Shown here: positions 49,435 to 50,763 of the stretch, in pieces
Layout of the letters: each line of letters opens with the position of its first letter
Position numbering within the stretch: position 1 is the stretch's first letter
Assembly (NCBI GenBank): GCA_009701885.1
Contig: WLJH01000004.1
Location: 1-64,000 of the forward strand
Source: Actinomycetota bacterium
Lineage (GTDB): Bacteria; Actinomycetota; Actinomycetes; Propionibacteriales; Nocardioidaceae
Reading direction: 5' to 3'
Length of the DNA: 64,000 bases
Translations under genes and position numbers: made by a program
Notes under the pieces: generated by a model
What the model was told of the DNA's origin: nothing
Database searches by the model: none
Seen by the model: only the letters and a program-made list of their open reading frames with translations

Positions 49435-49601
49435 CTCAGCCTCGATCCACCGATGGTCGCCGTCGCGAGCGGCACCAGACGGGTGCGCTGGCAAGGCGGA
49501 GCGCCCAAGGCGGGCCCCCAGGCCCGTCGAGGCGTGACAACGCCGCCAGGGCGCCCGGATGGTGACGCGTAGCAGGCGAGAATCGGTGGATCGAGGCTCA
49601 G
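49435..49601. mobile_element. MITE-like element with terminal inverted repeats, copy 2
   Basis: Perfect 15-bp terminal inverted repeats CCTCGATCCACCGAT (49440-49454) and its complement (49582-49596) enclose a 127-base G/C-rich interior with no gene. CTCAG occurs directly at both outer ends (49435-49439 and 49597-49601), consistent with a 5-bp target duplication. The right-hand CTCAG includes the stop codon of the minus-strand GDPD gene, so the stop is rebuilt by the duplication. The element matches 1-150. No transposase for it is in the window. Confidence 0.75.
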
Positions 49602-50662
49602 GCGGGGGCGGGGAGGTCGGCGGGCCGGTCGTCCCGGGCGGCCCGGCAGACCTCGGGGTGGTCGGTGATGAGCCCGTCGACGCCCAGGTCGAGGAGCAGC
49701 GCGGCGTAGCCGCGCAGGTCGCCGTGGCCGGTGCGGTCGTGGCCGCGGTACGGGCGCGGGAGGAAGCGGTCCTCCGCGCGGAGCGTCCAGGTCCGCACCT
49801 GCAGCCCGTGGCGGTGGGCCCGGTCCAGGAGTCCCGTGGGCACGACCCGGTCGCCGAGGTCGCGGGCGAGCAGGGAGTGCCGCGGGCCCAGACCGGTCGC
49901 GTAGGAGGCGACGGCCGCCAGTCCGCTCGGGGAGACCAGGTCGGCGAAGGTGCGGGGGTCGCCGGCGGCGGCCAGGTCGGCGGGGCGGGCGCGCAGGTCG
50001 TCGACCAGCTGCACCAGCGGCACCCGCGTCCGGCCCGCGAGCGAGACCAGGCCGGTCGGCTCGAAGCCCATCACGGTCGCCGGGGAGCCGGGGCGGTCCA
50101 GGTCGTGACGACGCAGGTCGTCCAGGAGCGGCTCCGTGGGATCCAGGCCCCGCGCGGCCGACAGCGCCACGTCCTTGAGCTCGACGAGCACCCCCACCTC
50201 ACGCCCGTGCGAGCGCGCGCTCTCCGCGACCAGCCCGAGGACCTCGTCCAGGGTCGGGACCGCCAGCAGACCGTCGTACGCACCCGAGGCGGGGCGCTGG
50301 AGCGGCCACCGCTCCCGCGCCCGGAGCAGCCGGACCTGCTCGAGCGTCAGGTCCTCGACGAACCAGCCCTGGACCCGCCGCCCGGCGACCACGCGCTCGC
50401 TGCGGAGGTGCGCCAGCTCGGCGCGCCGCGCGACGTCGGTGGTGGCCGACAGCTCGCTCTCGTGCCGGGCGACGAGGACGCCGTCGGCGGTGCTGACGAC
50501 GTCGACCTCGATCGCGTCGGCTCCGAGCGCGAGGGCGTGGCGGTAGGCCTCGAGCGTGTGCTCCGGCCGGTGGCCGCTGGCACCGCGGTGCGCCGCCACG
50601 GAGGCGGCGAGGACGGAGGAGGTGGTGGTCGGTCGGGCGTGCGGCACGAGCGTCACGACCAC
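49598..50662 (-). CDS. Glycerophosphodiester phosphodiesterase family protein
   Basis: Predicted ~354-residue GDPD-type TIM barrel that hydrolyses glycerophosphodiesters to glycerol 3-phosphate and an alcohol. The catalytic pair is visible in VAAHRGASGHRPEHTLEAYRHALALGADAIEVDVVSTADGVLVARHESEL (the HRG His and the later RHE His, plus metal-binding ExD). The C-terminal GLITDHPEV matches the family end. No secretion signal is evident. Several GTG codons are possible; 50662 has GGAGG six bases upstream, 50677 does not. Its stop codon lies inside the target duplication of the MITE-like element. Confidence 0.85.
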   Translation of the reverse strand: MVVTLVPHARPTTTSSVLAASVAAHRGASGHRPEHTLEAYRHALALGADAIEVDVVSTADGVLVARHESELSATTDVARRAELAHLRSERVVAGRRVQGWFVEDLTLEQVRLLRARERWPLQRPASGAYDGLLAVPTLDEVLGLVAESARSHGREVGVLVELKDVALSAARGLDPTEPLLDDLRRHDLDRPGSPATVMGFEPTGLVSLAGRTRVPLVQLVDDLRARPADLAAAGDPRTFADLVSPSGLAAVASYATGLGPRHSLLARDLGDRVVPTGLLDRAHRHGLQVRTWTLRAEDRFLPRPYRGHDRTGHGDLRGYAALLLDLGVDGLITDHPEVCRAARDDRPADLPAPA

Positions 50663-50763
50663 CACGTTCCTCCGCACGGGTGTCCCAGCGGTGCACGGCG
50701 GAGCGACACGCGGGTGAACGTCCCGTGAGGACCGGGTGGACCAGTCCGGCGGAGGATGCCTCC

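Follow-up and report, generated by a model that had tools for sequence, protein, structure and literature searches.

A MITE with IS1380-type ends and a conserved folded core at the stop codon of a GDPD-like gene in an actinobacterial genome

The element at the window locus

The window analyzed here is a stretch of 64,000 nucleotides from a genome of the Nocardioidaceae, below called G000, which is assembled as 3.96 Mb in 78 contigs. Positions 49440-49596 of the window are occupied by an element of 157 bp with the pentamer CTCAG on either side, at 49435-49439 to the left and at 49597-49601 to the right. The ends of the element are inverted repeats of the sequence CCTCGATCCACCGAT, perfect over 15 bp (49440-49454 on the plus strand and 49582-49596 on the minus strand) and also found on IS1380 elements of relatives. 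Between them, at 49459-49577, lies a conserved folded core of 119 nt, which is assigned to the plus strand as the one that folds more stably. The element is thus short, bounded by terminal inverted repeats and without a transposase gene, as a MITE is. To its right a glycerophosphodiester phosphodiesterase-like (GDPD-like) gene occupies 49598-50677 on the minus strand; its best NCBIfam match scores 101.6 bits, under the model cutoff of 254. The stop codon of this gene is the target site, the TGA being complementary to 49598-49600 inside the right-hand CTCAG. A second copy is present at 1-152 on the plus strand, where its left end is cut by the first base of the contig (C34) and its right flank is CTGAG at 148-152; the arm subtype of this copy, inferred from the right arm, is CCCAGATCCACCGAT.

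The whole element forms a long imperfect hairpin. The minimum free energy of the plus strand folded as RNA is -123.9 kcal/mol (z -13.6), a value that none of 200 shuffled sequences reached, while the minus strand gives -107.4 kcal/mol (z -8.2).

A sequence-only reading of the window had taken this segment for a MITE-like transposon with perfect 15-bp inverted ends, CTCAG direct repeats at both outer ends and a second copy at the start of the window. The repeats and the second copy are real, and the transposon itself is confirmed by its ends, its flanks, its copies and an empty site. Our results support that interpretation as correct, and also as incomplete.

Copies, target duplications and empty sites

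A BLAST search of G000 gave 31 places at E<=0.001 (40 of the 97 first-look candidates were scored), 11 of which repeated a listed copy on its opposite strand, so that the copies number 20. The window's end type is present on 14 of these, several being cut by contig edges, and the further copies that the sequence-only reading had proposed to look for were thereby found, with matching flanks. Flanks were compared in those 28 window-type copies whose two ends a single search rule could read. The pentamers on the two sides were identical in 20 of the 28 and at most one base apart in 27. In the 21 copies with CTNAG on both sides the middle base was equal in 19 and complementary in one, an agreement that none of 10,000 permutations reached and that tells a direct duplication apart from an extension of the inverted repeat.

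The orthologous site is empty in the close relative G037, where the GDPD protein is 93% identical. There, a single CTCAC holds an in-frame TGA and the protein ends in ...ADVPA*. The expectation of an empty site was borne out, but the site reads CTCAC, one base from the predicted CTCAG. Likewise, the proposal that the duplication had rebuilt the stop codon needs to be amended: the GDPD stop does lie in the right-hand CTCAG, but the empty site of the relative already carries an in-frame TGA at the corresponding position, so a stop that was there beforehand was kept through the insertion. Two more G000 insertions, with other arms, are likewise empty in G037. One of them is CTAG-element-CTAG in G000 vs a single clean CTAG in G037, and for the other the duplication is not clear-cut. 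In all three empty sites inspected base by base the arms are absent together with the core. As judged from these comparisons of sequences, the element is mobile. Searches of plasmid and phage collections gave no match to the element at E<=1e-3.

Some individual copies are of interest in themselves. At 118187-118515 of the window's contig in G000 (C34; L003, L006, L091) a tandem pair of elements has one CTGAG in common between them, as if the second element had inserted into the duplication of the first. Very short elements that keep the ends and are without most of the core occur in G009 (L088:5355-5419) and in G020 (L084, L085); the breakpoints of the G009 element may share GTCGCG, suggesting an internal deletion. 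An older copy is found with near-identical flanks in three genomes (L020 on contig C47 of G000, L247 in G037 and L261 in G016), between apparently convergent genes whose last codons and stops, by eye, lie in its arms.

Insertion at stop codons

The 28 legible copies have 56 flanks, 23 of which read as genes running towards the element. The stop of such a gene was in the duplicated pentamer in 17 cases, before it in six and inside the element in none, and altogether 16 of the 28 window-type insertions are at a gene's stop. As background we used 381 kb made up of the window and 40 Nocardioides or Nocardioidaceae loci, themselves core-bearing, on which a crude gene finder placed 337 CTSAG sites at 60 gene stops, at 108 intergenic positions and at 169 positions inside genes. 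The excess of stops among the insertions is strong when set against all CTSAG sites (p 3e-6) and modest when set against the sites outside gene interiors (p 0.017); most of it comes from the target motif containing TGA/TAA, together with the loss of insertions inside genes. Insertions at CTAG show a similar picture, with 7 of 11 at stops, or 6 of 9 if two misassigned rows (the left side of L189, and L259) are left out. The insertion at the GDPD-like gene is a typical case of the family.

The gene whose stop is hit runs sense to the element in eight cases and antisense in nine, counts that do not support a role in host read-through transcripts. A coarse coding score applied to 110 core copies suggests that neighboring genes are antisense to the plus strand in 84 cases vs sense in 54; by the same score right-hand genes point to the core in 54 cases vs 18, left-hand genes in 36 vs 30, and neighbors in a tandem arrangement are antisense in 18 vs sense in six. 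We do not claim that the neighboring genes are oriented at random. For the IS1380 elements described below, none of 28 flanks was called as coding towards the element, a count that is uninformative because the coding model was trained on three genes of the window.

An IS1380-type partner

The transposase gene bounded by the same ends, which the sequence-only reading had named as a thing to look for, turned up in relatives of the genus. G050 carries elements of about 1.68 kb with the ends of the window element and a CTNAG duplication, and the two copies that were translated encode IS1380 transposases, with scores of 350 and 337 bits where the cutoff is 180. Among 14 partner copies from four genomes with both ends recognized (taken from 30 loci plus two), the 5-bp flanks were identical in 13 and one base off in one; the left flanks were CTNAG in 12 and TTAAG in two. 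The end variants CCCGG and ATCCGTGGA are present both on IS1380 elements and on MITEs. Very probably an IS1380-type transposase has moved the window element in trans.

A protein query with the IS1380 transposase detected a related transposase in 12 of 59 genomes of the genus, and the element was matched in 34 of the 59, G000 included, some of these matches being to the ends only. In the 78-contig assembly of G000 the IS1380 transposase had no protein match, a result that does not decide on past mobility; accordingly the element of this genome either has been left without a mover or is served by one that the assembly does not contain. In 13 of the 14 IS1380 partners the middle target base was A/T, vs C/G in 22 of 23 CTNAG left flanks of MITEs, and because of this difference the true mover may be another IS1380 lineage.

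Covariation and strand preference of the core

A core of about 118 nt was recovered in 113 sampled copies from the genus and the family, all distinct, scoring at least 30 bits and with at least 30 nt on either side, so that copies cut by contig edges fell out. For the consensus fold, columns with 60% gaps or more were left out; thinning of near-identical cores then gave an alignment of 84 sequences. The 26 core pairs are paired in 96.8% of cases, compared to 83.4% after shuffling and 23-47% when slid. Two-sided changes are found in 19 of the pairs and amount to 228 cells vs 61.6 expected, and the covariation is 0.409 vs 0.166, values reached in none of 500 shuffles; these shuffle controls ignore relatedness, and the alignment tested is also the one that yielded the structure. 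The arms are 79.8% paired, with 476 two-sided cells vs 169.9, although the number of arm pairs in which any such change occurs is no different from that in the shuffles. The pairing of the core is kept by compensatory changes, which is a structural constraint. A conserved structured RNA or a terminator had been offered by the sequence-only reading as the alternative to a transposon; the structured RNA holds in part, in that compensatory changes mark the interior as a conserved folded core, but the element that carries it is also mobile. Rfam gave no match within the element at E<=1, and none at E<=2 for the core of 20 other loci.

The fold favors one strand. The consensus has an energy of -75.8 on the plus strand and of -35.3 on the minus strand. 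With orientation assigned by homology alone, all 113 of 113 cores fold more stably on the plus strand (mean -72.3 vs -55.2 kcal/mol), as do 112 of 112 extended copies (one N-containing copy left out). The raw core count of 376 G-U vs 12 A-C cells is inflated, the pairs having been taken from the plus-strand fold. For the 12 core pairs that both strands predict the ratio is 37 to 9, for the 16 arm pairs of this kind it is 122 to 58, and for the minus strand's own 19 core pairs it is 38 to 161. A U-G wobble at one pair is shared by 64 of the 84 sequences. Taken together, the fold data suit a folded RNA or a folded single-stranded DNA better than a neutral palindrome.

Covariation and strand asymmetry, by which a structured RNA would be recognized, are both present, and single-stranded DNA would show them equally. 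The strand preference is the same with RNA and with DNA energy parameters, the latter giving it in 112 of 112 copies, so it does not single out RNA. A single-stranded DNA, such as a replication-fork hairpin or an origin of second-strand synthesis, could thus be the molecule under selection, and such a folded strand would in addition pair both ends of the element with each other. We hold this to be a real, if somewhat doubtful, possibility, as the frequent G-U wobbles suit RNA better. On the basis of the wobbles we would perhaps prefer RNA, leaving a sizeable minority share to single-stranded DNA and a small remainder to neither.

The same core with different arms

MITEs are usually regarded as shrunken transposons with passive interiors, and on this view the window element would be an ordinary deletion derivative of an IS1380 element with filler in the middle. 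Its ends, duplication, copy number and empty site fit such an origin. The interior does not: compared with four IS1380 copies it has nothing in common with them beyond the ends, the core model scores at most 15.8 bits on these copies, and the core recurs with unrelated ends and shows compensatory change. By this comparison the middle approximately 118 nt are not IS1380-derived, and we find an ordinary MITE improbable.

The recurrence with other ends is seen throughout the sample. A crude match rule divided the 113 copies into 51 with window-type arms and 62 with others, a division to be read with the reservation that L186 and L236 at least, which it puts with the 62, seem to be window-type with a shifted register. 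The other arms differ widely, yet they are nearly always complementary to each other, and many are flanked by CTAG/CTNAG. In G056 no two of the nine sampled copies have the same arms, though L215 and L228 are window-type. The core itself keeps a conserved internal-loop sequence, GCAAGGCG ... CAACGC. One arm type, CTAG followed by GGCGTGTCTC, also bounds elements of 969-980 bp in G022, G044 and G013, and the two of these that were translated (G022, G044) encode IS5-family proteins. This exact end pattern adjoins the core in 10 of 30 loci (nine copies), and three IS5-sized elements scanned held no core. Transposase matches were obtained for two arm types only. For a third, an exact 20-base pattern run against 341 genomes of the family found no transposon; five of the genomes had pairs of MITE size or lone ends. 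Judging by the ends, a single core goes with two transposase families or more.

Could the core then be a mobile element of its own, which enters the loops of pre-existing hairpins such as terminators or short MITEs, the arms belonging to the target? The nine G056 copies without shared arms would be expected from such a habit, as would complementary arms on nearly all sampled copies. In that case, however, the empty allele should retain the arms, and at the three sites checked base by base it has none; insertion by the core alone is refuted there. The two sites on contig C7 that are empty in G037 moreover look empty in G016, G013 and G040 too, by match coordinates alone. We consider insertion into loops very unlikely as a general account.

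Equally hard to credit is that the palindrome is kept by template-switch (quasi-palindrome) correction instead of by selection on the fold, since arm homogenization, to which long inverted repeats are prone and which is the reason to think of it here, should be strand-neutral, while the plus strand is the more stable in every core, G-U exceeds A-C on the common core pairs, and one U-G wobble is present in most sequences. Correction of this kind may contribute in the arms, where the common pairs give 122 to 58.

Spread in the phylum

Of the 84 thinned sequences, 68 were used to build a covariance model of the core (R1). It matches at least 27 of 396 genomes across the phylum, G000 included, the weakest matches being near the threshold; the number is a lower bound, as eight candidates were scored per genome under strict filters. 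When 40 of at least 80 loci from a pattern scan were tested with the model, it supported records from Nocardioides, Kribbella, Propionibacteriaceae, Pseudonocardiales and Acidimicrobiales. The non-actinobacterial loci among the same 40 scored at most 21.1 bits, and the scan's records from Burkholderia, Pseudomonas, Verrucomicrobia and other sources outside the phylum are accordingly taken as chance matches. The core family is widespread in the phylum, with matches of the model in other orders. Fourteen members outside the training set were folded, and with the strand chosen by the model the plus strand was the more stable in all of them; GCAAGGCG is kept in 13 of the 14 and CAACGC in 11, and most have complementary arms of their own. 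In the open-licence literature, viewed at the level of abstracts, we recognized no prior description of the core family.

Among the same loci, a match of 28.1 bits to the core model is found at L400:869-984, in an unplaced MAG titled 'bacterium', with arms that do not look complementary.

A proposed two-module organization

The explanation that we propose with good confidence, from comparison of the sequences, is that the window element is a non-autonomous MITE of two modules. The outer module consists of the terminal inverted repeats and the CTNAG duplication, as in IS1380-family elements, on which an IS1380-type transposase would act in trans. The inner module is the long-hairpin core of about 118 nt, common to elements with unrelated ends, one group of which has ends matching IS5-family elements. 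In its folded state, whether RNA or single-stranded DNA, one particular strand would aid the propagation or persistence of the element, and the fold would have been retained by selection while the ends were exchanged between transposase systems. As the CTNAG/CTAG target holds a stop triplet, insertions at gene ends duplicate the stop and leave the protein intact. The dispersal of many copies as insertions with intact duplications leads us to infer selection at the level of the mobile lineage, as opposed to individual chromosomal loci. The role of the core that we favor is in the element's own propagation, because its strand-specific folding is under constraint and because it outlasts changes of the ends. 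More tentatively, and with somewhat less than even confidence, we suggest a selfish folded core, an RNA or a single-stranded DNA hairpin, that is phylum-wide, repeatedly acquires unrelated transposon ends (IS1380, IS5 and others) as vehicles and inserts at stop-codon motifs, in which case the passenger would define the lineage.

Like other bacterial MITEs, the window element is short, lacks a transposase gene and has inverted ends, a target duplication, many copies and an autonomous partner with the same ends, but it differs from them in that its interior is a conserved folded core common to elements with unrelated ends. With the IS1380 family (NF033539) it shares the ends and the 5-bp CTNAG duplication, whereas it has no transposase, none was found in the assembly, and the middle base of the target differs between the partners and the MITEs. 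The IS5 family (NF033580) matches other core-bearing MITEs in its ends and CTAG duplication; its ends are not those of the window copy, and the IS5-sized elements scanned were without the core. REP/BIME palindromes and RAYT-mobilized elements are likewise repeated extragenic palindromes, but the window element is much larger, with true inverted ends and target duplications.

The usual picture of a MITE is thus turned around, with the interior as the conserved part and the ends as the variable one. If the fold drives mobility, some stage of bacterial DNA transposition, or of the host's tolerance towards it, would depend on a folded strand and be open to unrelated transposases. This large family can be recognized by a covariance model, and the stop-codon target helps to explain how such elements may build up at low cost in gene-dense genomes.

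The end repeat of the MITE has visitors of its own. An IS110-family transposon, of the RNA-guided type, lies inside it at the same position in three copies, at the junction between GGTGGAT and TCTCAATGAC. One is in G037 (L181:1379-~2812), with a match of 240.7 bits to NF033542, and the other two, for which the junction alone was compared, are on contigs C68 and C4 of G000 (L004, L012). The IS110-family transposon appears to use the MITE end as its target.
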